Below the pieces are notes generated by a model. That model was not told the origin of the DNA, searched no databases, and saw only the letters and a program-made list of their open reading frames with translations. The position numbers and the translations under genes were made by a program. From the NCBI RefSeq assembly GCF_004114975.1, contig NZ_CP030051.1, positions 1,240,001-1,304,000 of the forward strand: a stretch of 64,000 bases of DNA, written 5' to 3'. Source of the stretch: Bradyrhizobium guangdongense. GTDB taxonomy: Bacteria > Pseudomonadota > Alphaproteobacteria > Rhizobiales > Xanthobacteraceae. Shown in pieces: positions 34,330 through 57,007 of this stretch (position 1 is the first letter of the stretch; each line of letters starts with the position of its first letter).

Positions 34330-34344
34330 ATTGGTCCTACCAAT
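34330..34344. promoter_or_regulatory. FadR/PdhR-type operator 1
   Basis: ATTGGT-CCT-ACCAAT is a perfect palindrome around a three-base centre, 102 bases upstream of the GMC gene start. The same pattern recurs before the other cargo units, so it is probably a binding site of the GntR protein at 40429. Confidence 0.72.
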
Positions 34345-34399
34345 CAGGTCGATCCAATTATAGCGACGAAGGCCTGGTAGTCAACGGAGAGCTCGTCTC

Positions 34400-34540
34400 A
34401 TGTTTCAATACCGGAGGATCGTGGCCGCGTTCCTGCTCCTCGGCGCAGGGCTCGCCGTTTTGCTGCTCGCTCCTGCCAAACCTGCCATCCAGCCGGACCA
34501 AGAGACGATTCGACGAGTGATATGGGCTCTTGGCCCCTAG
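34400..34540 (+). CDS. Possible 46-residue membrane peptide
   Basis: A short frame runs from ATG 34400 to TAG 34540, with GGAGAG nine bases upstream. The product has one strongly hydrophobic helix (VAAFLLLGAGLAVLLLA) followed by a short polar tail. It ends convergently with the CoA-transferase gene, overlapping its last codons by four bases. No family is recognised. It is small and could be chance. Confidence 0.35.
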   Translation: MFQYRRIVAAFLLLGAGLAVLLLAPAKPAIQPDQETIRRVIWALGP

Positions 34541-35784
34541 CCGACTTCGGGACGTCCGATATCGATGATCCGTCGCTCACTTAGATCTTGGATGGCCGCC
34601 GAGTCGTACTTCAGTATCGACTTGAGGATGTTTGCAGTATCCTCGCCTCGCCGCGGCGGTCCTTTGGCATATTCGATCTTCGTTCCGGAAAACTTTATCG
34701 GATTGGCGACGAGAGGGGCTGTTGTTCCGGAAGAATGAGGAAGATTGACCTGCATCTCCCGATGGATAACCTGAGGGTGAGCGAACACCTGATCCAGCCG
34801 GTTGATCGGTGCGCAAGGCACGCCCACGGGCTCCAGAATGGAAATCCAATGCTGGGTCGTCTGCTGTATCAGATGCGCATCGAGTAGGGGGATGAGTTGA
34901 TCACGATTCTTAAGCCGGTCGGTGTTAGTGACGAAACGGCTATCGGTTGCCAGGCCGCTTAAACCAGTAGCTGCACAGAACTTCCGGAATTGCTGATCAT
35001 TACCAACGGCGAGCACGAAGGAACCGTCGCTGGTTCTGAAGACCTGATATGGAACGATGTTTGGATGCGCGTTGCCGAACCGTTTCGGCGGCGTGCCGGT
35101 CGTGAGGAAATTCAAATTTTGGTTGGCGAGAACCGCGACCTGGACGTCCAGCAGTGCCATGTCGATATGCTGTCCTTCTCCGGTGCGTTCGCGATGCAGT
35201 AATGCGGAGATGACGCCGGCGGCGCTATACATGCCAGTGAGAATATCGACGATCGGAACCCCGACCTTCTGCGGACCCCCGCCTGGCTTGTCATCACTCT
35301 CTCCGGTAATGCTCATCAGGCCGCCGATGGCCTGAATGGCCATATCGTATCCTGCGACGTCCTTCATCGGGCCGGTCTGGCCATAGCCGGTGATGGAACA
35401 GTAAATGATGTCAGGCTTGACCCTTTTAAGCGCCTCGTAGTCGAGGCCGTAACGCGCCATGTCGCCGACCTTGTAGTTCTCGATCACGAGATCGGCTTGC
35501 TGGGCAAGTGCGCGCACAATGGCGCTACCCTCGTCAGTCGATATATCGACGCATATCGAATGCTTGCCGCGATTGGCGCTCAGGAAATACGCGCTTTCGG
35601 TCGTATCAATTCCACCGTCTTTCCGCAGAAAGGGCGGGCCCCACTGCCGCGTATCGTCGCCGGTGCCAGGGCGTTCGATCTTCCAAACCTCGGCTCCTAG
35701 ATCAGACAGCAACTGCGCTAACCAAGGCCCCGCGAGGATTCTCGAAAGATCCAGCACTCGATAACCTGCCAACGGTCCAGCCAT
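34537..35784 (-). CDS. CaiB/BaiF family CoA-transferase
   Basis: Start is ATG 35784, preceded by AAGGAAG; the frame extends further upstream but without support. The 415-residue protein begins PLAGYRVLDLSRILAGPW, the standard family III CoA-transferase entry, and contains the catalytic aspartate in VPIVDILTGMYSAAG. Family III enzymes move CoA between acids without release of free CoA, for example formyl-CoA:oxalate or carnitine systems. Here it probably activates an acid derived from the cargo substrate. It is divergent from the sugar-type ABC importer, and two operator palindromes lie between the starts. Confidence 0.9.
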   Translation of the reverse strand: MAGPLAGYRVLDLSRILAGPWLAQLLSDLGAEVWKIERPGTGDDTRQWGPPFLRKDGGIDTTESAYFLSANRGKHSICVDISTDEGSAIVRALAQQADLVIENYKVGDMARYGLDYEALKRVKPDIIYCSITGYGQTGPMKDVAGYDMAIQAIGGLMSITGESDDKPGGGPQKVGVPIVDILTGMYSAAGVISALLHRERTGEGQHIDMALLDVQVAVLANQNLNFLTTGTPPKRFGNAHPNIVPYQVFRTSDGSFVLAVGNDQQFRKFCAATGLSGLATDSRFVTNTDRLKNRDQLIPLLDAHLIQQTTQHWISILEPVGVPCAPINRLDQVFAHPQVIHREMQVNLPHSSGTTAPLVANPIKFSGTKIEYAKGPPRRGEDTANILKSILKYDSAAIQDLSERRIIDIGRPEVG

Positions 35785-35861
35785 CACGCTTCCTTGAAGT
35801 CTGCGGGTCAAATAGCCGCGCGCCGTGCGAGGCCGCACTAACTATATGTGGAGCGACCAGA

Positions 35862-35874
35862 TTGGTCAAACCAA
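35862..35874. promoter_or_regulatory. FadR/PdhR-type operator 2
   Basis: TTGGT-CAA-ACCAA, a perfect five-base-arm palindrome 78 bases upstream of the CoA-transferase start, in the divergent promoter region shared with the ABC importer. Confidence 0.7.
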
Positions 35875-35917
35875 ATGCTGCTTGACACCGCGCATCACGC
35901 GACATACGGTCCTGCCA

Positions 35918-35934
35918 AATTGGTTTAACCAATT
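35918..35934. promoter_or_regulatory. FadR/PdhR-type operator 3, best match
   Basis: AATTGGT-TTA-ACCAATT is a perfect 17-base palindrome and the strongest of the series, identical in form to the AATTGGTnnnACCAATT sites known for PdhR/LldR regulators. It lies 38 bases before the ABC ATPase start and 56 bases from operator 2. Confidence 0.78.
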
Positions 35935-35971
35935 AATGAAAATACCGGGAAGAACGTGAAGGTCTGGCTGT

Positions 35972-37132
35972 ATGGCGCGAGTAACTCTCCAGAATGTCGC
36001 GAAATCCTTTGGAGGAGATCGAGGGCCATGGGCCGTTCAGGACTTTTCGTTGGATATTGCCGATGGCGAACTGGTCGTGTTCGTCGGCCCGTCCGGCTGC
36101 GGCAAGTCCACGACGTTGCGAATGCTCGCCGGTCTAGATGACGTCACATTCGGCAAGATTCTGATCGACGGAAGGGACGTCACCGCGCTTCCGCCGAAAG
36201 ATCGCAACATTGCGATGGTTTTTCAGAACTACGCTCTCTATCCACAGAAGACGGTCTTCGAAAACATGGCCTTCGGCCTTCGGGTCCGTAGGACGCCACA
36301 GCAGGAGATCGATCGTCGGGTGCGCAGCGCGGCATCAAGTCTCGGATTGGAGGCCCTGCTGGAGCGCAAGCCACGCCAATTGTCGGGTGGTCAGATGCAG
36401 CGCGTAGCGCTTGGTCGCGCGTTAGTCAGAGATCCCGACGTATTCCTCCTCGACGAACCCCTCTCGAACCTTGATGCGAAGCTGCGGGTCCGGACGCGAG
36501 AAGAGATTGCGACGCTACACGCCCGATTGGGCGCGACGATGATATTTGTTACCCACGATCAGGTCGAGGCCATGACGCTCGGCGATCGTATCGTGATCAT
36601 GCGTGACGGATTCATCCAACAGGCGGGCAGTCCGCTTGACCTTTATGATCGGCCCGCGAACGCCTTCGTGGCGACTTTCATCGGGTCTCCAGAGATGAAC
36701 CTGATTGATGGCGGGTTGATGCGCGACGGGGGCGCGCTCGTAATGCGCTCCGGCGGTTTGAGCGTCAACTTGCCTGCCCAGTCATTCTCCGAAGCGGAAA
36801 GGGATGTCACGCTTGGCATTAGGCCCGAGCACATCGAGCGCGCGGAAACCTCCACGGCTTTTGAGCTGGTAGTCGGCTTGGTCGAGCAAATCGGCGCGCA
36901 AACCTATGTGCTGGGTAAGATCGATGGCAACAAAATCCGCGCGGTATTTGCTCGGGACGATGCGCTGAGGGCGGGCGACCGAATTTTTGTGAATTTGTCT
37001 CAAGAGAAGTTGCACCTGTTCTCGCGCGAGAGCGGCAAGACACTGAGGCGGACCTCGACGAAAGGCGAAAATGGCAACGGGAGAGAACTTCATGGACAAG
37101 CTCAGCTTAGGCGCGCCGAGTTCCAAGGCTAA
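35972..37132 (+). CDS. Sugar/polyol-type ABC importer ATPase (MalK/UgpC-like)
   Basis: The 386-residue ATPase shows all ABC motifs in order: Walker A GPSGCGKST (about residue 36), Q-loop VFQNYALYPQ, signature LSGGQMQRVALGRALV, Walker B VFLLDEPLSNLDAKL and switch histidine FVTHDQVEAM. The C-terminal regulatory TOBE/OB part (LGIRPEHIERAET) is typical of CUT1-type importers for sugars and glycerol-phosphate. Its end overlaps the binding-protein gene by 41 bases. It energises the importer formed with the next three genes. The substrate is unknown. Confidence 0.92.
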   Translation: MARVTLQNVAKSFGGDRGPWAVQDFSLDIADGELVVFVGPSGCGKSTTLRMLAGLDDVTFGKILIDGRDVTALPPKDRNIAMVFQNYALYPQKTVFENMAFGLRVRRTPQQEIDRRVRSAASSLGLEALLERKPRQLSGGQMQRVALGRALVRDPDVFLLDEPLSNLDAKLRVRTREEIATLHARLGATMIFVTHDQVEAMTLGDRIVIMRDGFIQQAGSPLDLYDRPANAFVATFIGSPEMNLIDGGLMRDGGALVMRSGGLSVNLPAQSFSEAERDVTLGIRPEHIERAETSTAFELVVGLVEQIGAQTYVLGKIDGNKIRAVFARDDALRAGDRIFVNLSQEKLHLFSRESGKTLRRTSTKGENGNGRELHGQAQLRRAEFQG

Positions 37133-38453
37133 CGTGAGCGACATCGATCGGCGGCGTTTTCTCAAAACGACGGCTGGTGCAGCGGCTGGCATCGCGGGCT
37201 CACTTTCCGCGCCCTATGTCAACGCACAGTCCGGGGTAACGCTTCGCATTTTGAACGCTGAAACGACTGCTGCGAGCCAATCGGCCTTGCGCGATGCGTG
37301 CAATGAATACGAGAGCAAGTTCGGCGTAAAAATCGTCGTCGACTCGACGCCGATTAGTGGTGGTTATGCGAAGTCGATGGCGGCCATCAATGCTGGCGCT
37401 CCTTACGATATCGCCACGGCGGGATACATTGCGCACATCTTGCAATACGCGATGGCGGGTCACATCGTGCCGTTGACGGATCTTGTCAAAAAATATTCGT
37501 GGGGGAAGCAGGGAACCTGGTCATATAAGGGAGAAAATTGGTTCTATCCCTATGACTACAATTTGGTGACGGTTTTCTACAGAAAAGATCTGTATCAGGA
37601 GAAGGGCCTGAAGGTTCCCAACACATGGGCCGAGTTCCTTGAGAATTGCCGGGCGCTGACTGTCGCGAAGGATGGCAACATAGAGCGAGGGGGGTGCGTC
37701 ATACCGCTCGCGAGTGACAGTGCCACCAACTGGGCGAGCTTCGGCAACTTGTTTGCAGACGCGCCGAAGTTTTATGACGACAAGTGGAACGTCGTTCTCG
37801 ATGCGCCGGGGAATGCCGGACCGACCGGCCGTTTTCTCGATCTATATGCCGATCTTTATAAAACGATGCCGGCTGGCATGAACACGGTCAGCTATGCTGA
37901 GCTGATGAGTCTTTTCGCGACGGGAAAGGTTGCGCATACCGTCTATTCGGGCCGCGTAGTCGAGGCGCTGGAAGCTCGCAATCCGGACCTCGCAAACAAG
38001 TATGGTATTTTCGCTTCTCCAGACAGTGCTGGTAAGCAGAACGCACTGTCCTTCGCCTTCGATGGCTTTATTCTTTACAAGACTAAGCAGACTGAGGCGG
38101 CCTTTAAGTTTCTACAATGGTTTATTGACGCGCACTATATTCGCTGGCTGCACTCCGCCTGGATGAATTTCCAACCGGCGCGATTGGACATTTACGAAGA
38201 TCCACGGTGGAAAAATCATCCGATGATTCAGAAGCATTGGGCGACGATGGAGCAGATGAAGTCGTTCATTGATGAAGACAGCAAGACGGTTCTTAACTCA
38301 ATAGATATGACGGGTCCGTCGTTTGATCTGCGACCGTGCAAGGTCTTTGATGCGAACATTATGCCGGAGATGCTGCAAAATCGGGTTCTTAAGAACATGT
38401 CGTCAAGCGACTGCGTGAAAGCCGCCGCCGATCGAATCCGAAAAATTGGCTGA
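37092..38453 (+). CDS. ABC importer solute-binding protein, Tat-exported
   Basis: Start at ATG 37092, with GGGAG upstream; the ATG at 37071 is less likely. The N-terminus DRRRFLKTTAGAAAGIAG is a twin-arginine signal, so the protein is probably exported folded. The mature part is a family 1 extracellular solute-binding protein: FGVKIVVDSTPISGGYAKSM, a YPYDYNLVTVFYRKDLY segment and LQWFIDAHYIRWLH. Aromatic-rich patches line the presumed pocket. The base composition is visibly more AT-rich than the transfer genes. The gene overlaps the ATPase gene, unusual in order but compatible with coupling. Confidence 0.88.
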   Translation: MDKLSLGAPSSKANVSDIDRRRFLKTTAGAAAGIAGSLSAPYVNAQSGVTLRILNAETTAASQSALRDACNEYESKFGVKIVVDSTPISGGYAKSMAAINAGAPYDIATAGYIAHILQYAMAGHIVPLTDLVKKYSWGKQGTWSYKGENWFYPYDYNLVTVFYRKDLYQEKGLKVPNTWAEFLENCRALTVAKDGNIERGGCVIPLASDSATNWASFGNLFADAPKFYDDKWNVVLDAPGNAGPTGRFLDLYADLYKTMPAGMNTVSYAELMSLFATGKVAHTVYSGRVVEALEARNPDLANKYGIFASPDSAGKQNALSFAFDGFILYKTKQTEAAFKFLQWFIDAHYIRWLHSAWMNFQPARLDIYEDPRWKNHPMIQKHWATMEQMKSFIDEDSKTVLNSIDMTGPSFDLRPCKVFDANIMPEMLQNRVLKNMSSSDCVKAAADRIRKIG

Positions 38454-38485
38454 GCATCGGAACTGGTGAATAGAGGCCCGAGGCT

Positions 38486-39358
38486 ATGCGACAGGACTGG
38501 CGAATCATCGGTTTGTTCATCGGGGGTGTACTGGTACTCGGTACAATTGTTGGCGGACCTCTCCTCTATTCGATAAAGCTCTCCTTCTACACAGCGGCGT
38601 CGTTCATCGACCCGCCGCAGTGGGTGGGACTTGGCAATTACGTGAAGGTTCTTAGTGAGCCGCTGTTCTGGGGCTCGCTGTTAAACGGTGTCACGATCGC
38701 CATCTCGGCGATCGTGCTGCAAGTCGTTCTCGGCGTCACCATTGCGCTCGTCCTCAATAGGCAGTTTGTGGGGCAGACTGTCGTGCGGGCGCTGTCAATC
38801 GTGCCGTATTTTCTTCCGACGGTCGTCGCCTGCCTCATCACGCAGTGGATTCTTGATCCCAACTACGGCCTTCTCAAGAGTGTCTTCGCGTCATTCGGAT
38901 ATGGGATGTTCGATTGGGGAGGTAATTCAACGAGCGCGAAGGCGACTATTGTCCTTGTTAGCGTTTGGATCTGGACGCCGTTTGTCGTGACCTGTGTTCT
39001 TGCCGGCCTTCAATCCATTCCGGCTCAACTGTATGAAGCGGCCCGGGTCGATGGAGCAGGGGTTATGAAGCAATTCTGGCATGTCACGCTGCCAGGATTG
39101 AGGTCAGTGTTGATCGTGGTCATCCTCCTGAGAGGGATCTGGATGTTCAACAAGTTCGACGTGATCTGGCTTCTAACGAAGGGCGGACCGCTCAACGAAA
39201 CCGAGACGCTTCCCACGTTGGCCTACCGAAAAGCGTTTCTCGAGTTCGACTTGGGAGGGGGGGCCGCTGTCGCCACCATCTCGTTCTTGATGTTGGCGAG
39301 CATTATCTTGATTTACCTCAGGGTTTTTCCGATCGACGAGGCCAAGCAGGGACGATGA
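38486..39358 (+). CDS. ABC importer permease, MalF/UgpA-like
   Basis: A 290-residue inner-membrane protein with about six spans. The EAA loop, which contacts the ATPase, reads YEAARVDGAGVMKQFWHVTLPGL near residue 195. The N-terminal helix and the FIDPPQWVGLGNYVKVL segment fit the CUT1 group. It forms the pore with the permease encoded next; the reading frames overlap by four bases. Confidence 0.92.
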   Translation: MRQDWRIIGLFIGGVLVLGTIVGGPLLYSIKLSFYTAASFIDPPQWVGLGNYVKVLSEPLFWGSLLNGVTIAISAIVLQVVLGVTIALVLNRQFVGQTVVRALSIVPYFLPTVVACLITQWILDPNYGLLKSVFASFGYGMFDWGGNSTSAKATIVLVSVWIWTPFVVTCVLAGLQSIPAQLYEAARVDGAGVMKQFWHVTLPGLRSVLIVVILLRGIWMFNKFDVIWLLTKGGPLNETETLPTLAYRKAFLEFDLGGGAAVATISFLMLASIILIYLRVFPIDEAKQGR

Positions 39359-40341
39359 CGATGTCGACTCAAAATCAAGCCCGCTCTGCTGCCGCTGTCG
39401 TCGTTGGTTCACGAGCGGTGCGGATGTTGCATAGCTCTAGCGGCTCAGGAAGAGAAATCTCAGACTCCACACCTTCAGTCTCGCACGGGAAAACGACGCG
39501 GTATTACGGCAAGTCGCTGAAGCAGATTGCCGGCCGCGTCGGTTTGTATGCCGCGGTTGCGCTAATCTGCATCTATTCCTTCTTCCCGATCTACTGGATG
39601 ATCCTCTCCAGTCTGAGGTCGCCCGAAAAGCTATTTCTGGATTCATCCTTGGTTTTCTGGCCACCCGATCTAAGCTCTTACAAGTCACTCTTGCAGCTTA
39701 CGAACTATCCGGCGAATTTCGTTAATAGCGTCATGATGGCTATGGCTACGATTGCCGTGGCGACGACGCTGTCATCATTCATTGCTTATGGAGCGACGCG
39801 TTTACGGTTTCGGGGCAAAACGACGTTGGTCGCGTCCATGCTGTTCGCCTACATGTTTCCGCCATTGATGTTGGTTATTCCGATGTCCGCCTTGTTCCGA
39901 ATAGCTGGCTTAGCCGATAGCTTGTGGGGCCTGCTAATCGCTCACCTGGCGATTTCGCTGCCGCTGGCGGTGTGGCTGCTATGGGGCTTTTTCAAATCGA
40001 TGCCGTTCGATCTGGAGGAAGCGGCAATGGTGGACGGCTGTTCCCAATTCGGCGCCTTCATCAAGGTGGTCCTTCCGCTTTCGGCCCCCGGCTTGATTAC
40101 GGTCGGCATCTTCTCGTTTTTGCTGTCCTGGGCGGACTACGTATTCGCGCTCATCCTCATCATGAGTGATGATCGCAAGACATTGCCCGTGGGCTTGGCA
40201 TCAATGCTTGGCGCGCAAGATCTGCGTTGGGGTGAGATACTCGCCGGCGCAACCCTTATTGCTCTGCCGTTGTTCGTTATCTTTATGTTCTGCTATCGAT
40301 ATTTCGTCGCAGGGCTGACGGCGGGTGCGCTCAAAGGTTAG
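39355..40341 (+). CDS. ABC importer permease, MalG/UgpE-like
   Basis: A 328-residue permease with six spans and the EAA loop EEAAMVDGCSQFGAFIKVVLPLS near residue 222. The first 60 residues form a serine-rich cytoplasmic extension before the first helix (YAAVALICIYSFFPIYWMIL), longer than in most relatives; ATG 39361 is an alternative start. It ends 12 bases before a strong hairpin that terminates the operon. Confidence 0.91.
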   Translation: MTMSTQNQARSAAAVVVGSRAVRMLHSSSGSGREISDSTPSVSHGKTTRYYGKSLKQIAGRVGLYAAVALICIYSFFPIYWMILSSLRSPEKLFLDSSLVFWPPDLSSYKSLLQLTNYPANFVNSVMMAMATIAVATTLSSFIAYGATRLRFRGKTTLVASMLFAYMFPPLMLVIPMSALFRIAGLADSLWGLLIAHLAISLPLAVWLLWGFFKSMPFDLEEAAMVDGCSQFGAFIKVVLPLSAPGLITVGIFSFLLSWADYVFALILIMSDDRKTLPVGLASMLGAQDLRWGEILAGATLIALPLFVIFMFCYRYFVAGLTAGALKG

Positions 40342-40352
40342 GCACTGTTCGA

Positions 40353-40376
40353 GCGAAGCACGTCCTCGTGCTTCGC
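40353..40376. terminator. Bidirectional hairpin between ABC operon and gntR
   Basis: GCGAAGCACG, loop TCCT, CGTGCTTCGC forms ten perfect pairs. It lies between two convergent genes (ends 40341 and 40429). U tracts are poor on both sides, so it may act as a stabiliser as well as a terminator. Confidence 0.65.
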
Positions 40377-40428
40377 GCTAGACCGTGGGTATTTCGCGTA
40401 GAGATGGCGGACGGGGTGCCCGGCAAGA

Positions 40429-41157
40429 CTAACGTTTTGTGACTTTGGTTTCCCCTAGAAGCGATTGCCATGCCTCCACTGTTCGCGAGAGGTGAGCGTT
40501 CATCTGTTGTTCGGCTAGGCCTACCCGCCGCTCTTCGATCGCTTCCAAGATGGTGCAATGGTCCTCATAAGATTGTCGACCTCGATTTTGGTCGGCAAAG
40601 TAGACCTTCCGTCGATGCCTGGACAGTTCGTAGAACGATCTCGCCACGCGCAGCAAAATGTCGTTCTTGGTTGCAGCAAAAATCGCAAGATGGAACGCCT
40701 CGTCCTCGCGCTCTATGCTTTGCTTTTTGGATAGGCGCTTGTTGGTCTCTTCAAGTATGGCGGTGATCTCGCGAATGTTGTCCGCGGTCCTGCGTGTGCA
40801 GGCCAACCTGACCGCCTGCCCTTCGAGCATGCGCCGGACCTCCATGACGTCGGCGATTTCCTTGGCCTCGAATGGAACTCCGGATTCAGCATAAAGCACT
40901 AGAGCATCGATGCTGCTCTCTTCGATCTTTCGCAGATAGATTCCAGAATTTGGGCGCCGTTCTATCACTCGCATGGTTTCAAGTGCGGCCAGAGCCTCTC
41001 GAACCGCGCCGCGACTGGTGTCGAACTTTTCCGCAAAGTCGCGTTCTGATGGCAACCGTTCGGAGGGCTGATAGCGGCGCTCACGGATGAAGGAAAGGAT
41101 CTTTCCGATGGCGTTCGAAGGAGCCTCAAGCTTGTCGGTTCGATTTCGCTCAGTCAT
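40429..41157 (-). CDS. FadR-subfamily GntR regulator, predicted master regulator of the cargo
   Basis: The 242-residue protein has the GntR winged helix RLPSERDFAEKFDTSRGAVR with EALAALETMRVIERRPNSGIYL and a helical FCD ligand domain. In the FCD part D, H and H residues (for example in EDEAFHLAIFA and ALIEERRVGLAEQQMNAHL) are placed to hold a metal, as in FadR-group members that bind carboxylic acids. Palindromes TTGGT-N3-ACCAA, the site type of PdhR, LldR and FadR, stand before nearly all cargo units, including its own. It is therefore the best candidate for a single regulator of the island. The effector and whether it represses are unknown. Confidence 0.88.
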   Translation of the reverse strand: MTERNRTDKLEAPSNAIGKILSFIRERRYQPSERLPSERDFAEKFDTSRGAVREALAALETMRVIERRPNSGIYLRKIEESSIDALVLYAESGVPFEAKEIADVMEVRRMLEGQAVRLACTRRTADNIREITAILEETNKRLSKKQSIEREDEAFHLAIFAATKNDILLRVARSFYELSRHRRKVYFADQNRGRQSYEDHCTILEAIEERRVGLAEQQMNAHLSRTVEAWQSLLGETKVTKR

Positions 41158-41222
41158 CTAAAATATCCTGCCTGGTCCTGCCGACCACTTGATTTCGATT
41201 TCCTCGGTAGCTAATCATGGCC

Positions 41223-41241
41223 GACCAAATTGGTCGACCAG
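41223..41241. promoter_or_regulatory. Composite GntR-type operator 4
   Basis: GACCAA-A-TTGGTC at 41223-41235 is a perfect palindrome and overlaps TTGGT-CG-ACCAG at 41230-41241. The centre differs from the three-base form of the other sites. It lies 73 bases upstream of gntR and 119 bases before gor, so it may serve both, including autoregulation. Confidence 0.6.
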
Positions 41242-41359: not shown

Positions 41360-42745
41360 ATGGATAGCTTTGAGACGGATCTGTTTGTCATAGGTGGCGG
41401 CTCGGGCGGCGTGCGCGCCGCGCGGATCGCCGCTGGCCATGGCGCCCGCGTCATGATCGCCGAGGAATATCGGATGGGCGGCACTTGCGTCATTCGCGGG
41501 TGCGTACCGAAGAAGCTATTCGCCTACGCCTCGCATTTCAGCCACGACATCGCGGATGCCGCGGGCTTCGGCTGGACCGTTCCGCCGGCGACGTTCGACT
41601 GGGCCACCCTGATCGCCAACAAAGACAAGGAGATCGCCCGGCTGGAAGCGGCCTACACCACCAACGTGGAGAAATCTGGCGTGCAGGTGATCAAGTCGCG
41701 CGCCGTGTTCGAGGACCCGCATACGCTGGTGCTCGACGGCGGCAGGAGGGTGCGCTCGAAGTATATCCTGATCGCCACGGGCGGCGCACCGAACCACGGC
41801 AAGGCCATTCCCGGCATCGAGCATGTCATCTCATCGAACGAAGCATTTCATCTACCCGAATTGCCGAAGCGTATCCTGATCCAGGGCGGTGGCTATATCG
41901 CGCTGGAGTTTGCGTGCATCTTCTCGGGCCTGGGTTCCCTCGTGACTGTGGTCTATCGCGGCGACAACATCCTGCGTGGCTTCGACGACGACGTCCGCGC
42001 CCATGTCCGCGATGAGATGGAGAAGAACGGCATTACCATCCTGACCGGTTGCACGGTCGACGGGATTGAGAAGCACGACGATTGGTACACGTCGCACCTG
42101 TCGAATGGCTCCAGCATCGCGTCCGACAAGGTGATGTTCGCCATCGGCCGTCACCCCGCCGTCGCAAATCTCGGGCTGGAGAAAGCCGGCGTCGCCATCA
42201 ACCCGGATAACGGAGGCATCGTCGTCAACGAAGCCTCGCAGAGCTCGGTGCCACATATCTATGCGGTCGGCGACGTCACCCATCGCTTCAATCTGACGCC
42301 GGTAGCGATCCGTGAGGGCCACGCTTTCGCCGATACGGTTTTCGGCAAGCGGGCGGTCAAGGTCGATCACATCGATATTCCGACCGCCGTGTTCACGCAG
42401 CCCCAGGTCGGCACCGTGGGCCTCACCGAGGCGCAGGCGCGGGCGCAGTTCGCTATCGTTGATGTCTACAAGGCGGCGTTCCGCCCGTTGAAGGCGACGC
42501 TGTCCGGCAGCGAGTCGCGGGTGTTGATGAAACTGGTGGTTGACGCGGGGAGCGACCGCGTCGTGGGTTGCCATATCGTTGGATCGGACGCGGCCGAATT
42601 GGTTCAGGTCATCGCCATTGCCGTAAAGATGAAGGCTACCAAGGCGGACTTCGACGCCACTATGGCGCTGCACCCGACCTCCGCCGAGGAACTGGTGACT
42701 ATGCGTACCCGCACTGCACGTTACGTGCGCGACGCGGCGGCTTAG
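41360..42745 (+). CDS. gor: Glutathione-disulfide reductase
   Basis: The 461-residue flavoprotein reduces GSSG with NADPH. The FAD motif VIGGGSGGVRAARIAAGHGA opens the protein; the redox-active disulfide is in GGTCVIRGCVPKKLF (about residues 43-57); the NADPH fold begins ILIQGGGYIALEFACIF; and the C-terminal catalytic His-Glu pair is in HPTSAEELVTMRT. The gene is richer in G and C than its neighbours and may have come from a different source. Its place among catabolic genes with a glutathione S-transferase (58746) suggests it regenerates glutathione for the pathway rather than general housekeeping. Confidence 0.94.
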   Translation: MDSFETDLFVIGGGSGGVRAARIAAGHGARVMIAEEYRMGGTCVIRGCVPKKLFAYASHFSHDIADAAGFGWTVPPATFDWATLIANKDKEIARLEAAYTTNVEKSGVQVIKSRAVFEDPHTLVLDGGRRVRSKYILIATGGAPNHGKAIPGIEHVISSNEAFHLPELPKRILIQGGGYIALEFACIFSGLGSLVTVVYRGDNILRGFDDDVRAHVRDEMEKNGITILTGCTVDGIEKHDDWYTSHLSNGSSIASDKVMFAIGRHPAVANLGLEKAGVAINPDNGGIVVNEASQSSVPHIYAVGDVTHRFNLTPVAIREGHAFADTVFGKRAVKVDHIDIPTAVFTQPQVGTVGLTEAQARAQFAIVDVYKAAFRPLKATLSGSESRVLMKLVVDAGSDRVVGCHIVGSDAAELVQVIAIAVKMKATKADFDATMALHPTSAEELVTMRTRTARYVRDAAA

Positions 42746-42847
42746 AAAGCTCAATTTCGATCGATTGTGCAAATTCAGGCCGTTGGCGCGCGCGTTATGC
42801 GGCGCCGCTCAAAACGCACTTGACAATACGATTGTGATCATACCAAA

Positions 42848-42860
42848 CTGGTCCTACCAG
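42848..42860. promoter_or_regulatory. FadR/PdhR-type operator 5
   Basis: CTGGT-CCT-ACCAG is a perfect palindrome 101 bases before the ligase gene at 42961, close to the E. coli FadR core. The rest of the 215-base gap shows no gene. Confidence 0.72.
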
Positions 42861-47070: not shown

Positions 47071-47081
47071 ACGAGGATACG

Positions 47082-48518: not shown

Positions 48519-48533
48519 GGTGACGGGAGTGTG

Positions 48534-49724: not shown

Positions 49725-49740
49725 GGCGAGGCGGACTGGT

Positions 49741-51048
49741 ATGCAAACAAACTTCTCGCTGACGGCCTTGGCCGATGCACATGTAAGCGAGTCAGAAAAA
49801 ATCCTCCGTGCCTGTGTGCATTGCGGCTTTTGTACTGCGACATGCCCGACATATCTGCTTCTTGGTGACGAAGCGGACAGTCCGCGCGGGCGCATCTATC
49901 TGATCAAGGACATGTTGGAGGAGGAAAAGCCGGCGACCCCTCAGGTCGTCGAGCATATCGATCGATGTCTGACGTGTCTTTCCTGCATGACGACCTGTCC
50001 GTCCGGCGTGCACTACATGCACCTGGTCGATCACGCGCGAGCCCATATCGCCCGAACCTATACGCGTCCTCTGCCTGATCGGTTGCTTCGAGGCATGTTG
50101 GCGAAGGTGCTGCCGTTTCCGGGCCGACTTAGGTTGGCTTTACGCGTGGCTACCGTGAGCAGGCCGATCAGAAAGTGGCTCGCCAATCTTCCCGGCGGCG
50201 CGCAACTCGCCGCGATGATTGAACTTTCGTCGTCATTCAAGCGAAGAAGGCCGACCCGAAGGTTACCGGGCGCGACCGTCGATAGGCCGCGCGGTCGGGT
50301 TGCGCTTCTGAGCGGATGTGCCCAGCAGGTCCTCGGCCAGAACATCAACGAGGCTGCAATCCGGTTGTTGACGCGTCACGGTATCGAAGTAGTTCAACCG
50401 ATCGACGAAGGGTGCTGCGGAGCTCTCGTGCAGCACTTGGGATACGAAAGTCGGGCGCTGGATGCGGCTCGACACAACGTGGATGTATGGACACGCGAAA
50501 TCGAGAACGGCGGCCTCGACGCCATCGTGGTTACGACGTCCGGTTGCGGAACGGTCATTAAAGATTATGGCTTCCTACTTCGCAACGATAACGCCTACGC
50601 TCAGAAAGCCGTACGGATCTCGGCTCTAGCGCGGGACATCACAGAATTCTTGCATGAATTACCGCTTCAAGACGGTGTTCGGACTACCGGCCAGGTCGTG
50701 GCTTACCATTCGGCATGCTCGATGCAGCATGGACAGCAGGTTAGAGATCAGCCGAAGTCACTTTTGAGGCGAATGGGGTTTGTAGTGAGAGAAGTACCGG
50801 AAGGCCACATATGTTGCGGCTCCGCCGGAACATACAACGTACTGCAGCCTGAGATCGCCAATCGACTGCGCGCACGAAAGGTCACCAACATTGAGAAGGT
50901 CAAACCGCAAATCATTGCGAGTGGAAATCTCGGCTGCATAACGCAGATTGGTGCTGGAACACGCATTCCAGTCGTCCACACGGTGGAGTTGGTCGATTGG
51001 GCGATGGGCGGCCCGTTGCCTGACGTCCTAAAGGGGTGCTTGGGCTAG
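49741..51048 (+). CDS. glcF: Glycolate oxidase iron-sulfur subunit GlcF
   Basis: The 435-residue protein carries two 4Fe-4S ferredoxin motifs: CVHCGFCTATCPTY (about residues 22-35) and CLTCLSCMTTCPSGV (about 77-91). Two cysteine-rich CCG domains follow, with DEGCCGAL near 220 and HICCGSAGTYN near 355. It passes electrons from GlcDE to the membrane chain. The gene ends 27 bases before the convergent Dpp-type operon. Confidence 0.93.
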   Translation: MQTNFSLTALADAHVSESEKILRACVHCGFCTATCPTYLLLGDEADSPRGRIYLIKDMLEEEKPATPQVVEHIDRCLTCLSCMTTCPSGVHYMHLVDHARAHIARTYTRPLPDRLLRGMLAKVLPFPGRLRLALRVATVSRPIRKWLANLPGGAQLAAMIELSSSFKRRRPTRRLPGATVDRPRGRVALLSGCAQQVLGQNINEAAIRLLTRHGIEVVQPIDEGCCGALVQHLGYESRALDAARHNVDVWTREIENGGLDAIVVTTSGCGTVIKDYGFLLRNDNAYAQKAVRISALARDITEFLHELPLQDGVRTTGQVVAYHSACSMQHGQQVRDQPKSLLRRMGFVVREVPEGHICCGSAGTYNVLQPEIANRLRARKVTNIEKVKPQIIASGNLGCITQIGAGTRIPVVHTVELVDWAMGGPLPDVLKGCLG

Positions 51049-51075: not shown

Positions 51076-52116
51076 CTAGTTTGGATTGCCATTTCCGTCC
51101 ATCGCGGCTTCGATTGCCTTATTGGCTGCTGTCTCATCATACAGATGGCAGGCGATCTGCCGATTGCCGTGCAACCGCAGCGGCGGAATTTCGCGGCTGC
51201 AGACCGGCATGGCGGACTGACAGCGAGGGTGAAATGGACAGCCGGGCGGGGGGGTGGCGACGCTCGGCACCTCGCCCTGAAGGAGCACGTGATCGCGGGC
51301 GCGCTCGATTTGCGGGTCCGGCACCGCTACCGCATCGAGAAGAATGCGCGTGTAGGGATGGAGCGGTTCGCCGTAGAGGTCGTCGCGCGTCGCGATCTCG
51401 ACGATGCGTCCGAGATACATCACTGCGACCCGATCGCTCATGTGTCGGACGACGCCGAGGTCGTGCGAGATGAACAGATAGGACAAGCCGAACTGCTCCT
51501 TGAGGTCGGAAAACAAGTTCAGAACCTGGGCCTGCACTGAGACGTCGAGAGCTGAGACCGGCTCATCACAGATGAGCAGTTTCGGACGCAGTGACAGGGC
51601 GCGCGCGATGGCGACCCGCTGACGCTGGCCGCCGCTGAGTTGGTGCGGATAGCGGTCGAGGAAGCGAGTACCCATTCCGACCGTATCTAGGAGTTCGGCA
51701 GCCTTCGCGCGGCGCTCGTGGCCCGATCTGCCGACGCCCTGAATCGCCATCGGTTCGGCGATCAGGTCGGCGATTGTCATGCGGGGATTTAGCGACCCGA
51801 ACGGATCCTGGTAGATGATCTGCATCTCACGCCTTAGCGGTCGCATCTGGCGATGACTGAAGCCCGTGATATCGCGTCCGTCGAACACGACCCGGCCGCC
51901 GCTCGGCGGCGTCAGTTGTAGTATGGCCATGGCCGTGGTGGATTTGCCGCAACCGCTTTCGCCGACGAGCGAGAGAGTTTCGCCGCGCTGGAGTGTGAGG
52001 GATATGCCCTTGACAGCTCGAACGGAGGGGGCGCCCGTTACGCCGAAAGAGGTTGTGCTTGCATAGTCGACGCACAGGTCCGAGACCTCGAGAATATTCG
52101 TTGCTACGTCGTTCAT
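51076..52116 (-). CDS. Peptide-type ABC importer ATPase, DppF/OppF-like
   Basis: Start at ATG 52116, in a four-base overlap with the stop of the previous gene; ATG 52131 lies inside it. The 346-residue ATPase has GESGCGKSTTAMAIL (Walker A), IYQDPFGSLNPR (Q-loop), LSGGQRQRVAIARAL and LLICDEPVSALDVSVQAQVL, and a C-terminal OppF tail with the cysteine pair in GCPFHPRCQSAMPVC, which may carry an iron-sulfur centre. It is the last gene of a five-gene Dpp-like operon read from 56709 downward. Confidence 0.92.
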   Translation of the reverse strand: MNDVATNILEVSDLCVDYASTTSFGVTGAPSVRAVKGISLTLQRGETLSLVGESGCGKSTTAMAILQLTPPSGGRVVFDGRDITGFSHRQMRPLRREMQIIYQDPFGSLNPRMTIADLIAEPMAIQGVGRSGHERRAKAAELLDTVGMGTRFLDRYPHQLSGGQRQRVAIARALSLRPKLLICDEPVSALDVSVQAQVLNLFSDLKEQFGLSYLFISHDLGVVRHMSDRVAVMYLGRIVEIATRDDLYGEPLHPYTRILLDAVAVPDPQIERARDHVLLQGEVPSVATPPPGCPFHPRCQSAMPVCSREIPPLRLHGNRQIACHLYDETAANKAIEAAMDGNGNPN

Positions 52117-53111
52117 AGCGGATTCCAGCACGCGAACAGATGGCCGTTCCGTGTGCGTTCGTCGCCGCTAAGCGGAGGGCGTTCGTCGCACCGTTCGGTC
52201 CGACGTGGGCAGCGCGGTGCGAAGGCGCAGCCCCCGGTTCCGTCGGAGGGGGCGGGTGGCTGCCCAGCGATCGACTCGAGCCGATGAGCGATCGGACCGA
52301 CGATCTTGGGCACGGAGGCGAGGAGGGCGTGCGTATAAGGATGGCGCCCATCGCGATAGAGGTCGTCGGCCGCCGCTGTCTCGACGATGCGGCCGGCATA
52401 CATCACGTTGACCCAGTCGGCGTAGCGCGCCACGACGCCGAGATCGTGCGTGATGAGAAGCAGCGCCCCGCCCAATCCGCGGGTAAGGTCAGTGAGAAGC
52501 GTCAAAATCTGCGCCTGCACGGTGACGTCGAGTGCTGTCGTCGGCTCGTCCGCGATGATGAGTCTTGGCTCGCAGGAGATCGCGATAGCAACCATGACAC
52601 GCTGGCGCATACCCCCACTGAGCTGGTGAGGATAGGCCTCGGCTTTGGTCTCTGCATCCGGGATGCGGACCTTCTTGAGAAGGTAGATCGCCTGCGCTTT
52701 GGCGGCGCTCCAGGACATCCGGCGATGACGCACCAGCGGCTCGGCGATCTGGCGCCAGATGCGCAGGCTTGGGTTCAGCGCTGTCATCGGCTCCTGGAAA
52801 ACGATGCCGACCTCGTTGCCTCGGATGTCCCTGATCTGTTTTGGTGACTGCGTCTGCATATCACGGCCGGAGAGGCGTATTTCGCCGGCCGTGATCTTGA
52901 TCGGTGGCATTGGCAGTAGATGGGTGAGCGACATCGCGGTGATGCTCTTGCCCGCGCCGCTTTCGCCTACGAGCGCCACGACCTGGCCTGAATAGGCCCG
53001 GAACGAAACGTCTGCGACAGCACTCAGCTCCGTCTTGCCCGACCAGATGCCCACGCAGAGCCCGCGTACATCCAGTATCGGGGGCCCCGACATTTCCAAA
53101 GTTCCGTGCAT
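52113..53111 (-). CDS. Peptide-type ABC importer ATPase, DppD/OppD-like
   Basis: The 332-residue partner ATPase: GESGAGKSITAM (Walker A), VFQEPMTALNPSL, LSGGMRQRVMVAIAI and LIIADEPTTALDVTVQAQIL, with the OppD-type tail containing GGCAFAPRCPRRTERC. It starts three bases after the binding-protein gene ends. An ATG at 53093 is a possible alternative start. OppD/OppF pairs are normally heterodimeric, as here. Confidence 0.92.
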   Translation of the reverse strand: MHGTLEMSGPPILDVRGLCVGIWSGKTELSAVADVSFRAYSGQVVALVGESGAGKSITAMSLTHLLPMPPIKITAGEIRLSGRDMQTQSPKQIRDIRGNEVGIVFQEPMTALNPSLRIWRQIAEPLVRHRRMSWSAAKAQAIYLLKKVRIPDAETKAEAYPHQLSGGMRQRVMVAIAISCEPRLIIADEPTTALDVTVQAQILTLLTDLTRGLGGALLLITHDLGVVARYADWVNVMYAGRIVETAAADDLYRDGRHPYTHALLASVPKIVGPIAHRLESIAGQPPAPSDGTGGCAFAPRCPRRTERCDERPPLSGDERTRNGHLFACWNPL

Positions 53112-53114
53112 CGA

Positions 53115-54812
53115 TCAGAAGCCCATCGACTTCTTTAGATCCTGATCGATCCAAGCGCGCGCCCAGACCGGCGCATCACGCCGAGCGGAGACCGAAATCT
53201 CACCATAGTAATTCTTGACCCACGGCCACCATACCGTGAACGAGCGCGGCCTGGGCAGAAACAGGAATGGCGCTCGCGCGGTCATCTCATTGGTGAGCGC
53301 GGCGACGCCCTTCTTGACCTTGTCCGGGTCCCTCTCCTGCTGGATGGTGTCGAGTGCCGCATCGACCTTCGGGTCGTTGACGCGGGCCGAATTCCAGACG
53401 GAAGAGGACCGGTACAGTTTCTCGATTGAGGCCGTCGGATTGCTCATGCCTGCGAAATGCCAATAGCCGGGGCCGTGCTTGCCGGTGGTCATCAGACTGA
53501 GAAACGCTCCATACTCCTTTGGCTCGATGGTCATCTTTACGCCGATTGCCGACAGATATCCGGCTACAATCTGCGCTTTCTTTAGCTGCTCAGGGAAGCT
53601 CGGAACCTGTGCCTTGAACTCGAAACCATTCGCAAGACCCGCTTCGGCGAGGAGCTTCTTGGCCTTGGCCGGATCGTACTGGAGAACCTCCCGGGCATCG
53701 TTCGGCATCTTTTCGGGCGGCGTGAAATAGCCTTCCCAAGTTTCGTCCATCGGCAGGTGCGGAAAGTCGGCGTGGCCGCCATAGATCTGCTTCGAGATGG
53801 CGGCCCGGTCGACCGCGAGATTCAAGGCGAGACGCACCTTCGGGTTGTCGAAGGGTGGTGCATCGACCCGCATTGCCAGTGCCTCACCCGCATAGTCGGG
53901 GTGTTCGATGACTTTGATTTTATCTTGGATCGGCGCCAGTGACTTGAGTTCGTCCCAGTTGATATTCGCCATGACATCGATCTTGCCGGTGCGGAAGGCG
54001 GCTAGGCGTGTCTGTGAATCCCCGATCGTCCGCATCACAAGGTTATCGACGAATGGGATCTTGTAAGGTTTGCCGTCGATCGTCTCGCGGTCCCAGTACT
54101 CCTTGTTAGCCTGATAATCCCCGAAGGCCCCGGCCTCATACCGCGTCAACCGGAAGGGACCCGTGCCGCAGGCATTCTGCCAGTTGCCAGCACCGCCGTT
54201 AGGGGCCTCCGTGATCTCTTTGGGATAGATGCCGGCGTAATAGCCGTAGCCGAGGCGGTACTTCCACTCCGAGTTGTACTCCTTCAGGAAGAAGGTCACC
54301 TGGTGCGGTCCCGTCTCCTCGGCCCTGTCGATGAAGGAAAAATAGACTTTGTTCGCCTTCGGACTAGCGACGAGACGGTTATACGCGAACACGACGTCTT
54401 TGGCGGTAAAGTCGCGCGCTTCCATGATGCCTTTGCAGGCCTGCCATTTCACGTTCTTGCGCAGGTTGATAACGATCGAGAGCGGTTTGTCGACGACCTC
54501 CCAGCTCTCTGCGAGTTCGCCGCGCAGCACGTCGTCGCTGAGCCAGGCCTCGCTGAAAAAGTTGTTCTTCCCGCCGCCACGTACGCCTTTGCTTAGATCG
54601 CCCACCATCAACTGCTCCATGTAGGGCCCAGCATCGATAGAGACCTTCCAGTTCCAGTCGGCGGGATCCCACGACAACGCCGCAATCCCCGGGGAGTAAG
54701 GAACGATGGTCAGCGTGCCACCGTATTTGGGTTCCTGGGCGCTCACGGCTTGGGTCGCAATCACAGTCCCGAGCGCGATAACCGCCATAGTTCCGAGATG
54801 TCGGCCTACCAT
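53115..54812 (-). CDS. Family 5 extracellular solute-binding protein
   Basis: A 565-residue secreted binding protein with signal peptide MVGRHLGTMAVIALGTVIATQ ending near AVSAQ. The SBP_bac_5 pattern is clear: VINLRKNVKWQACKGIMEAR, VVFAYNRL, TGPFRLTRYEAGAFGDYQAN and LALNLAVDRAAISKQIYGG. Family 5 proteins bind peptides, nickel or other oligomers; in catabolic islands they sometimes bring in oligomeric aromatic or glycol substrates. The ligand here is unknown. It lies between the ATPases and the permeases, an unusual order for Dpp systems. Confidence 0.92.
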   Translation of the reverse strand: MVGRHLGTMAVIALGTVIATQAVSAQEPKYGGTLTIVPYSPGIAALSWDPADWNWKVSIDAGPYMEQLMVGDLSKGVRGGGKNNFFSEAWLSDDVLRGELAESWEVVDKPLSIVINLRKNVKWQACKGIMEARDFTAKDVVFAYNRLVASPKANKVYFSFIDRAEETGPHQVTFFLKEYNSEWKYRLGYGYYAGIYPKEITEAPNGGAGNWQNACGTGPFRLTRYEAGAFGDYQANKEYWDRETIDGKPYKIPFVDNLVMRTIGDSQTRLAAFRTGKIDVMANINWDELKSLAPIQDKIKVIEHPDYAGEALAMRVDAPPFDNPKVRLALNLAVDRAAISKQIYGGHADFPHLPMDETWEGYFTPPEKMPNDAREVLQYDPAKAKKLLAEAGLANGFEFKAQVPSFPEQLKKAQIVAGYLSAIGVKMTIEPKEYGAFLSLMTTGKHGPGYWHFAGMSNPTASIEKLYRSSSVWNSARVNDPKVDAALDTIQQERDPDKVKKGVAALTNEMTARAPFLFLPRPRSFTVWWPWVKNYYGEISVSARRDAPVWARAWIDQDLKKSMGF

Positions 54813-54845
54813 TCCTTGCTCCTCCTTAGTGTTATGGTTTTTCGC

Positions 54846-55748
54846 TCAATTGCGCACTATTCCGCGTGGATCGAGAAGATCGCGGAGAGAGTCTCCGAAG
54901 ATGTTCACGCAAAAAACGATCAGAGTTATCGCGAGGCCAGGGGCCGCGACCATCCAGACGTTCTCGAACATGTAAGGGCGGGCATCGCTCAGCATACGGC
55001 CCCACGCGGGTGCGGGCGGTGGCACACCAAGACCAAGGAAGCTGAGACTCGATTCGGCCAGGATCACGCCGCCGAGGCGCGTGGTGTAAAGCACGATGAG
55101 GGGCGCGGCGATCGTCGGCAGGATGTGCCGGAGAATAATGTGCCAGTTACCGGCGCCGAAGGAATGGCCCGCCTGCACGTACAGTTGCTCGCGCGCCGAC
55201 AGGACCGCGCCGCGTACGATGCGCGAACCGGCAACGCCGTAGAGGATGCCGAGGAGGGCGATGATCTGCACGATCCCGGGGCCGAGAACCGCGACGCCCG
55301 CGATCAGCACGATTAGGTCGGGAAAGCTCTGCCAGGTATCGACGAACCGCTGAACCAGGGCATCGAGACGTCCGCCGAAATACCCGGACAGAACCCCGAG
55401 CGTGACCGATAGGGCGAGCGATAGCAGCGCGGCGGTGATACAGACGATAACGGAAGTACGGGCTCCATAGATGATGCGGCTGAGGATGTCGCGTCCGAGT
55501 TCGTCTGTGCCGAGGTGGTGCGACCAGGACGGCCCTTGCATCAGCGATGTAAGGTCGATCGCGTCGAAGTCGTACGGTGCGATCCAAGGTGCCAAGAGTG
55601 CGCAGACCACGATCGCGGCGAGAAGGCCGGCGCAAACCGTTCCGAGGATATCCTGCTTAAAAAGGCGACTGAAGAAAGTCCTGACGGGTGCTGCCCAAGC
55701 GCCTCGCCCGGGACCTGTTTCGATCTTCAGAGGTGACTCGATAGTCAT
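54846..55748 (-). CDS. ABC importer permease, DppC-like
   Basis: A 300-residue permease of the OppC/DppC type: an N-terminal helix from about 28, HHLGTDELGRDILSRIIYGARTS, and the EAA-like loop REQLYVQAGHSFGAGNWHIILRHILP near residue 195. It follows the DppB-like gene by four bases and is 33 bases before the binding-protein gene. Confidence 0.93.
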   Translation of the reverse strand: MTIESPLKIETGPGRGAWAAPVRTFFSRLFKQDILGTVCAGLLAAIVVCALLAPWIAPYDFDAIDLTSLMQGPSWSHHLGTDELGRDILSRIIYGARTSVIVCITAALLSLALSVTLGVLSGYFGGRLDALVQRFVDTWQSFPDLIVLIAGVAVLGPGIVQIIALLGILYGVAGSRIVRGAVLSAREQLYVQAGHSFGAGNWHIILRHILPTIAAPLIVLYTTRLGGVILAESSLSFLGLGVPPPAPAWGRMLSDARPYMFENVWMVAAPGLAITLIVFCVNIFGDSLRDLLDPRGIVRN

Positions 55749-55752
55749 GCGT

Positions 55753-56709
55753 TCAGCCCTGACGAATCTTGGGATCTAGGAGGGCGTAGCTGATGTCGAC
55801 GAGCAGGTTGATCGTCATTACGCCGACGCCCACGAGAAGAAAGATGCCCGTAATGACCGGATAGTCCCGCTGCGACACCGCCATCAGGAGTAGTTGGCCC
55901 ATACCGGAGATCACGAAGATCTGCTCAATCACGACCGCGCCACCGATCAGCAGGGGCAACTGCAACCCGACGATGGTTATGACCGGCAGAAGCGCGTTTT
56001 TGAGGACATGGCGCAGGACGACCGTCCGCTCGTCGAGACCCTTGCTCCAAGCTGTACGGACATAATCCTGGCGCATGACTTCGAGGACCATGGTGCGGGT
56101 CATCCGCATCGTCACTCCCGACAAGGCGATGCCGAGGACGATGGCGGGCGGCACCATCTGGCGGAGGCTAAGGAGGGGATCGTCGGTCAGCCGAACATAT
56201 TGCACGGTCGGAGCGATCCCCCAGAGCATCGCCGGCACGACCACCACTAATGTCCCGAGCCAAAAAGGCGGGACGGACAGGGCCGTGATGGCAAAGACAC
56301 GGCCGAGATAATCGACCGGCTTGTTTTGCCGGATCGCCGAGATGATCCCGACGGGCAGCGCGATCAAGAGCGCGAATATCATGGCCAGCACGCCTAGATA
56401 CAGAGTAATCGGCATGCGCTCGGCGACGAGGCGGGTGACGCTATCTCCCGTCCAAAGCGAGCGACCGAAATCTCCGTGGAACACAATCGAGCTGATCCAG
56501 TGCCAATATTGTACAAGGACCGGCTGATCGAGCCCGAGTGCCTTGATAAGATCTTCGCGGGTCTGGACGCTGGCCGAGATGTCGTTCTGCGACATCATCA
56601 TGTCGATCGTGTTTCCCGGTATCAGGCGAATGGCCGAGAACACAATAACGCTCGCTAACAGGAACGTCGGCACAAGGGCGACAAGGCGACGAATTAGATA
56701 TCTCAGCAT
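55753..56709 (-). CDS. ABC importer permease, DppB-like
   Basis: Started at ATG 56709 (MLRYLIRRLVALVPTFL), the usual DppB beginning; ATG 56721 is an alternative and neither has a strong ribosome site. The 318-residue protein has six spans and the EAA loop LEVMRQDYVRTAWSKGLDER with LKNALLPVITIVGLQ near residue 225. It is the first gene of the importer operon; the divergent FAD oxidase gene starts 371 bases away, with two operators between. Confidence 0.92.
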   Translation of the reverse strand: MLRYLIRRLVALVPTFLLASVIVFSAIRLIPGNTIDMMMSQNDISASVQTREDLIKALGLDQPVLVQYWHWISSIVFHGDFGRSLWTGDSVTRLVAERMPITLYLGVLAMIFALLIALPVGIISAIRQNKPVDYLGRVFAITALSVPPFWLGTLVVVVPAMLWGIAPTVQYVRLTDDPLLSLRQMVPPAIVLGIALSGVTMRMTRTMVLEVMRQDYVRTAWSKGLDERTVVLRHVLKNALLPVITIVGLQLPLLIGGAVVIEQIFVISGMGQLLLMAVSQRDYPVITGIFLLVGVGVMTINLLVDISYALLDPKIRQG

Positions 56710-56871
56710 GACGCGGTCCATTGGAGGGCGCGCTCACCATGCAGATTGGCTTGGTCCGACAGCACCACGCTCTTGTCCCTCTCTATGTGAAAAAGGCCGC
56801 TGAACGCCCGCTCATCAAAAAATGAGGTGAGTTCTCTATTTGCAGATCAGTTGCAATCTGGCACATCCAAT

Positions 56872-56884
56872 CTGGTCATACCAT
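56872..56884. promoter_or_regulatory. FadR/PdhR-type operator 6
   Basis: CTGGT-CAT-ACCAT, one mismatch from a palindrome, 163 bases upstream of the DppB-like gene start. It belongs to the same operator series. Confidence 0.62.
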
Positions 56885-56980
56885 TCAAGCGTGCTCTTGG
56901 CGGCGGTGTCAAGGCGAATGTTGTCGCGGTGGCGTAGCTCCGGGGTGCTTATCTACTCCGAGAACCATTGACCGACCGAA

Positions 56981-57007
56981 TTGGATATGCCAATTTGGTC
57001 GAACCAG
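56981..57007. promoter_or_regulatory. Paired FadR/PdhR-type operators 7
   Basis: TTGGT-CGA-ACCAG at 56995-57007 and a weaker TTGGATATGCCAA at 56981-56993 stand next to each other, 14 bases start to start, 74 bases before the FAD oxidase gene. A tandem arrangement suggests cooperative binding. The rest of 56722-57080 shows no gene. Confidence 0.66.

Follow-up and report, generated by a model that had tools for sequence, protein, structure and literature searches.

The operators of FadR-subfamily GntR regulators are palindromes of the form TKGT/ACMA with a spacing of 3 or 2 nt, and those of PdhR, LldR and GlcC are described as sharing the core TTGGT-N3-ACCAA, with a GT/AC spacing of 3 nt (PMC4494728). 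Within the same subfamily, Escherichia coli NanR represses the sialic acid genes: several of its dimers occupy an operator made of repeats, which lies downstream of the polymerase site. The peg genes for polyethylene glycol (PEG) breakdown in sphingomonads are controlled by AraC-type PegR. The described PEG route involves a PEG dehydrogenase (PegA), an aldehyde dehydrogenase (PegC) and a PEG-carboxylate dehydrogenase (PCDH) (PMC7299911), with an acyl-CoA synthetase and a glutathione S-transferase (GST) taking part for long PEG chains (PMC6987047). Sphingopyxis macrogoltabida EY-1, which has a PEG dehydrogenase gene, grows on PEG and polypropylene glycol (PPG) (PMC4669395). Here we analyse a 64-kb stretch of the Bradyrhizobium guangdongense genome (contig NZ_CP030051.1, positions 1,240,001 to 1,304,000; the window), in which a GntR gene at 40429 and a series of TTGGT-N3-ACCAA-like palindromes belong to a catabolic island. 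We interpret the locus as a mobile and partly mosaic ether-glycol cassette under a GntR regulon that is new but of familiar type, and whose doublet operator is unusual in its constant form.

Palindromes identical to the exact form of the core, TTGGTNNNACCAA, were found in the window at 34331, 35862 and 35920, one with a single mismatch at 56995, and two with two mismatches each at 42848 and 56872. These are the six sites of the preliminary description, two of which had been placed 1–2 bases off (34330 and 35918). A composite site had also been read at 41223, where the sequence is GACCAAATTGGTCGACCAG: the half-sites are present, but the TTGGT/ACCAG pair has a 2-base spacer, and the site therefore gives no match at ≤2 mismatches in the window. 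The composite was dropped as an ordinary palindrome, and is read best as the same doublet architecture with three half-sites and 2-base spacers, a 2-nt spacing being described for FadR-subfamily sites (PMC4494728). A match at ≤2 mismatches is present in the orthologous gntR-gor gap of the five Afipia loci inspected, as well as in that of locus L018, and is absent from that of the near-identical loci L008, L012 and L016.

At ≤2 mismatches, the window holds 30 matches to the core, whereas 100 shuffled sequences gave 13.0 on average and never more than 23. Pattern searches of the 8.44-Mb genome returned five exact copies of the core, three of them inside 1.6 kb of the island, and 121 places at ≤1 mismatch vs 66 for the reversed pattern. 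A 21-column position matrix was trained on palindromes at ≤1 mismatch from five kinds of junction in diverged loci (GntR identity 59–82%). Such a palindrome was present in 29 of the 31 chosen intergenic junctions, the two without being GMC-CaiB in L023 and gntR-gor in L024, and the training set comprised 34 sites (28 distinct); the near-identical loci L008–L018 and the Xanthobacter gor-lig junction stood outside it. The ten best matches of this matrix in the window all lie in the intergenic gaps that the preliminary description had named as preceding the island units, and consist of the six sites and four neighbours 14 bp off. At a score of ≥12, nine matches were observed, with a mean of 0.46 and a maximum of 3 in 200 shuffles.

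Since the L030 fadox training site is close kin of the 56981/56995 site, a second and stricter matrix of 13 columns was made from 22 Afipia sites only. Seven of its top eight window matches are island operators; the coding match at 39871, inside a gene, ranks fourth, and the palindrome at 42848 only fifteenth. Among its 17 window matches with a score of ≥8, nine are intergenic and three are in the trb region, all three coding, and none of the strong matches belongs to the trb region. The core motif occurs inside genes at a low level, the strong sites cluster upstream of operons, and the operator series is confirmed.

All six sites are doublets, with a weaker second palindrome exactly 14 bp away (6/6), when a partner is defined in the window as at least 7 of the 10 fixed core bases at exactly +14 or −14. 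At the other offsets from 13 to 60, at most two of the six sites have a partner, and 0.28% of window positions reach this level as background. In a hand-chosen set of 36 sites (6 from the window and 30 from relatives, many of them mutually related, with the gntR-gor sites and the Afipia GMC sites left out), 34 have a partner of at least 6 fixed bases at 14 bp, and the next best offset, 13, gives 10. Genome-wide, five doublets were found at ≤2 mismatches, four of these in the island, and 18 at 3 mismatches, close to the 13 of the reversed-pattern control. The two other exact genome copies of the core have no 14-bp partner (best 5/10 positions). Two single TTGGT-type palindromes stand directly upstream of another FCD-type GntR gene of the same genome (L069, 813–912), also without a 14-bp partner (best 5/10). 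The constant doublet operator is unusual.

The 40429 protein combines a GntR winged helix-turn-helix (HTH) domain (Pfam 51.5 bits, cut-off 27) with an FCD domain (91.4 bits, cut-off 24.3), as in the FadR subfamily, and the sites have the subfamily form as well, being TKGT/ACMA palindromes with 3-nt (or 2-nt) spacing upstream of candidate target genes. It is the only GntR gene in the window, as had been noted earlier; the genome holds 31 GntR-domain and 21 FCD matches. In eleven diverged homologues the HTH is 79–95% identical vs 50–79% for the FCD domain. The best NCBIfam match is NanR, with 115 bits against a cut-off of 260, and the protein also scores below the equivalog cut-offs of PdhR (66.5/330), LldR (93/311), GlcC (66.8/301) and FadR (24/189 bits). 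The Zn/carboxylate residues described for NanR are D172, H176, H222, H244 and R128. As in NanR, the Asp, the three His ligands and the carboxylate-binding Arg align in the 40429 protein, and they are kept in 15 of 15 homologues, which makes a carboxylate intermediate the likely inducer.

The NanR arrangement, in which several dimers occupy operator repeats downstream of the polymerase site, is predicted here too. The NanR operator, however, consists of GGTATA direct repeats, in contrast to the TTGGT-N3-ACCAA palindrome pairs 14 bp apart, and NanR has a 32-residue N-terminal extension for cooperativity, whereas 18 residues precede the matched HTH in the present protein. The GGTATA-repeat operator was not found at the sites compared, although two GGTATACC palindromes are present in the ligase site of Xanthobacter. 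Unlike the PdhR, LldR and GlcC systems, the present one has constant 14-bp doublets, sits in a mobile ether-glycol cassette, and has a protein below the NCBIfam cut-offs of all three.

The earlier proposal that the island is wired to one regulator is well supported by the relatives: gntR and the operators are conserved together in diverged cassettes of different gene order, which is strong evidence for one GntR regulon across the island. The cassette with GntR and operators is kept in Afipia, Bradyrhizobium, Aminobacter, Pseudorhizobium and Xanthobacter. In Afipia cassettes, whose proteins are mostly 66–86% identical to those of the window, operators precede the ligase, fadox, ugpC/CaiB and GMC. 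Afipia massiliensis has an operator upstream of dppB, and a Bradyrhizobium locus with another gene order (GntR 74%, Dpp 43–57%) has operators before dppB as well as before the ligase and GMC. Plasmid-borne cassettes of Xanthobacter, Pseudorhizobium and Aminobacter, where GntR is 59–60% identical, carry them too. The Xanthobacter gor-lig junction has no match at ≤2 mismatches; a pair of TGGTATACCA palindromes lies there at a distance of 14 bp, each with a spacer of 2 bases. In L014 and L018, the Ugp-type ABC genes are absent between gntR and the CoA-transferase gene, and the operators there are kept. The island itself is 100% identical over 20.7 kb in an Afipia and 98–99% identical in Reyranella, which indicates that it moves between genera. 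GntR matches at E 1e-20 were found in 7 of the 100 relatives searched, own genome included; a class-wide search of 385 genomes with the FAD oxidase at E 1e-220 returned the own genome only and no new loci, and a plasmid search with DppA gave only two Cupriavidus records (47%).

The preliminary description had spoken of separately assembled units. This is only partly right. With near-identical islands set aside, the closest kin of the CoA-transferase, Ugp-type ABC, gntR, gor, aldh and glcDEF genes among the loci compared belong to one Afipia-like backbone (66–85%), whereas GMC and ligase, fadox-gst and Dpp have other histories. GMC and ligase are 90 and 93% identical to Sphingopyxis vs 84–85 and 75–76% to Afipia, fadox-gst is 95–96% identical to Aminobacter and Pseudorhizobium and 92 and 95% to Sphingopyxis, and the Dpp unit reaches 43–57% at best outside the near-identical islands. 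An assembly of the units in this island only was dropped as an explanation once the Afipia and plasmid cassettes had been found. The fadox gap aligns with Aminobacter from 56926 onward, so that the fadox promoter and operator (56981–57007) lie within the shared DNA.

On a 197-kb plasmid of S. macrogoltabida EY-1, a cluster 90–95% identical in GMC, ligase, fadox and gst was identified. The alignments begin at 42927 (ligase), 34286 (GMC) and 57048 (fadox), local-alignment ends being approximate; homology thereby stops 66, 44 and 40 bases short of the respective operators, and begins 34, 58 and about 33 bases before the gene starts (for fadox, with GTG 57081 taken as start). In the 33.6-kb Sphingopyxis stretch there is no matrix match of score ≥9 near the shared genes and three elsewhere, the plasmid gave no match to GntR, and an AraC gene adjoins the cluster. 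The Sphingopyxis PEG genes (peg operon, PCDH, GST) represent, by gene class, the same enzyme set as the island, but are accompanied by an AraC-type gene, a TonB receptor and an MFS transporter, in place of the GntR operators and ATP-binding cassette (ABC) importers found here.

All five gene classes of the PEG clusters have a candidate in the window: a GMC as the proposed PEG dehydrogenase, an aldehyde dehydrogenase, an acyl-CoA ligase, an FAD-linked oxidase as the proposed PEG-carboxylate dehydrogenase, and a GST. Judged by gene class, they fit the route described for PEG (PMC7299911), from alcohol via aldehyde to carboxylate, followed by ether cleavage to glyoxylate. Glyoxylate as the product also agrees with the malate synthase G gene found in the Aminobacter and Ancylobacter copies. 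The island is probably a mobile cassette that digests PEG-like ethers. In the literature searched, the regulation of PEG-type ether breakdown outside the sphingomonads seems undescribed, and literature on Xanthobacter dioxanivorans, Afipia and dioxane contained nothing on this cassette.

The favoured reading, to which we assign a probability of about 0.72, is that one local GntR repressor with doublet operators and a carboxylate inducer governs a mobile ether-glycol cassette. The 40429 protein would act as the local repressor, and the cassette, which moves horizontally, would serve the breakdown of ether glycols, meaning PEG-like or oligo-ethylene-glycol ethers together with the carboxylates derived from them. 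Each operator would be bound, perhaps cooperatively, by two dimers with palindrome centres 14 bp apart, over or beside the promoters of GMC, the CoA-transferase, both ABC importers, gor/gntR, ligase-aldh-glcDEF and fadox-gst, and release would follow when a carboxylate intermediate (PEG-carboxylate, diglycolate or glycolate/glyoxylate) occupies the conserved FCD metal site. The GMC promoter TTGACT-16-TATAAT (11/12) ends where the GMC doublet begins, the CaiB doublet covers the −35 box and spacer of its promoter, and at ugpC and the ligase a TTGACA, seen by eye, directly precedes the doublet; this placement favours repression. A single protein probably turns on the pathway, given that the paired switch and one regulator gene have both been retained in relatives.

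Several observations weigh against this reading. The genome contains 20 FCD matches besides this one, and these could recognise the same core; another FCD-type GntR carries two TTGGT-like palindromes directly upstream. Spacers of 2 bases occur in the ligase site of Xanthobacter and in the window's own gntR-gor site, and no matrix match was found near the Xanthobacter gntR itself. Promoter-like sites are not enriched in 34200–43000 (5 vs a mean of 4.2 in shuffles), and the Dpp/fadox gap yielded none. The Sphingopyxis genes are tied to PEG through the plasmid host, and the support as a whole comes from sequence comparison.

Among the alternatives, the one with most weight, though still unlikely, leaves the regulon as described and changes the substrate, to products of dioxane or tetrahydrofuran, alkyl glycol ethers or aromatic ethers. 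Kin of the cassette reside on plasmids of X. dioxanivorans and Ancylobacter polymorphus ZM13, the ZM13 copy adjoins a multicomponent monooxygenase, and genes for a ring-hydroxylating dioxygenase come after gst in the window; these dioxygenase genes, however, are absent from the SB17 copy and without a match in the diverged loci compared, and GMC, ligase, fadox and gst are 90–95% identical to genes on the plasmid of a PEG/PPG degrader. Considerably less probable is that one or more other FadR-type regulators of the host bind the sites, with the control exerted by the local GntR confined to its immediate surroundings. The host encodes many candidates, and TTGGT-N3-ACCAA is described as the usual core of FadR, PdhR, LldR and GlcC sites (PMC4494728), but this gntR is accompanied by the sites when it moves into Reyranella, Xanthobacter, Aminobacter and Pseudorhizobium, and the 14-bp partner is missing both from the palindromes beside another GntR and from the remaining two exact copies.

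The GntR could also act as an activator, or repress some units and activate others. GlcC is an activator, and the cassette includes a GlcDEF-like oxidase; the doublets at GMC, CaiB, lig and ugpC (the last two judged by eye) nevertheless lie over or just downstream of the −10 box or inside the promoter, and we consider activation slightly more improbable still. Chance, or common ancestry without function, is a very poor explanation of the palindromes: the many genomic places at ≤1 mismatch and the coding match among the top eight of the strict matrix speak for it, against the shuffle results, the 14-bp pairing, and operators conserved where the flanking DNA no longer aligns, e.g. in the ligase gap compared with A. 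clevelandensis.

Table 1. Genes and operators of the ether-glycol island, in window coordinates.
Feature	Position	Strand	Basis
GMC oxidoreductase, proposed PEG/ether-alcohol dehydrogenase	32636..34228	-	Domain match; 90% to S. macrogoltabida EY-1 plasmid GMC
Operator doublet before GMC; end overlaps TATAAT box	34331..34357	.	Pattern, matrix, promoter scan
CaiB-type (family III) CoA-transferase	34537..35838	-	Profile matches
Operator doublet, CoA-transferase side of divergence	35848..35874	.	Pattern, matrix, promoter scan
Operator doublet, ABC (ugpC) side of divergence	35906..35932	.	Pattern, matrix
Ugp-type ABC importer: ATPase, binding protein, two permeases	35972..40341	+	Profile matches
FadR-subfamily GntR regulator (GntR HTH and FCD, 242 aa), proposed island regulator	40429..41157	-	Pfam; kept with cassette
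Degenerate gntR/gor operator: three half-sites, 2-base spacers	41215..41241	.	Sequence, orthologous gap
Glutathione reductase (gor)	41360..42745	+	Profile matches
Operator doublet, ligase operon	42834..42860	.	Pattern, matrix, relatives
AMP-forming acyl-CoA ligase	42961..44517	+	Domain match; 93% to S. macrogoltabida EY-1
Aldehyde dehydrogenase	44543..45997	+	Profile matches
GlcD/GlcE/GlcF-like glycolate oxidase	47082..51048	+	Profile matches
Dpp/Opp-type ABC importer	51076..56721	-	Profile matches
Operator doublet, Dpp side of divergence	56858..56884	.	Matrix, relatives
Operator doublet, FAD-oxidase side of divergence	56981..57007	.	Pattern, matrix, doublet search, relatives
FAD-linked oxidase, proposed PEG-carboxylate dehydrogenase; likelier start GTG 57081	57030..58733	+	Profile matches
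Glutathione S-transferase adjoining oxidase	58746..59426	+	Profile match; comparison with relatives

The FAD oxidase resembles alkyl-dihydroxyacetone-phosphate synthase and glycolate-oxidase-type flavoproteins. Its ATG start (57030) is probably wrong, and GTG 57081, preceded by GGAG, fits the relatives better; in two of them a stop codon falls ahead of this GTG, within the stretch that separates the two starts, or close by. In Afipia sp. 1NLS2 the oxidase is split over two frames beside a second oxidase gene, 47% identical (L055, 9722–11327), and in the Sphingopyxis cluster a fragment annotated as FAD-binding protein overlaps the oxidase start (L062, 15676–16044). After gst, a Rieske ferredoxin, ring-hydroxylating dioxygenase alpha and beta subunits and a reductase are encoded (59372–63160), a set that is probably an add-on, as it is absent after gst in L051. 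On the other side, VirB8- and CagX-type transfer proteins, a LuxI-type synthase and a LuxR-type regulator directly adjoin the island (10000–32305), which fits a conjugative element.

Nearly the same enzymes occur with two different control systems, and the points at which homology changes have been located between operator and ribosome-binding site. As a tentative extension, which we hold to be rather less than an even chance, the 14-bp doublet may serve as a portable compatibility standard for swapping units between cassettes, the sphingomonad enzymes having passed to AraC-type control; the units would be swappable because the GntR HTH stays nearly fixed while the effector domain diverges. 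If so, units exchanged with promoter and operator attached, as for fadox-gst, would fall at once under the resident regulator, and the sphingomonad copies would have been joined downstream of the operator and then come under AraC-type control. The spacing of the doublet operator is directly testable, and the GntR is a candidate sensor for ether carboxylates in water.

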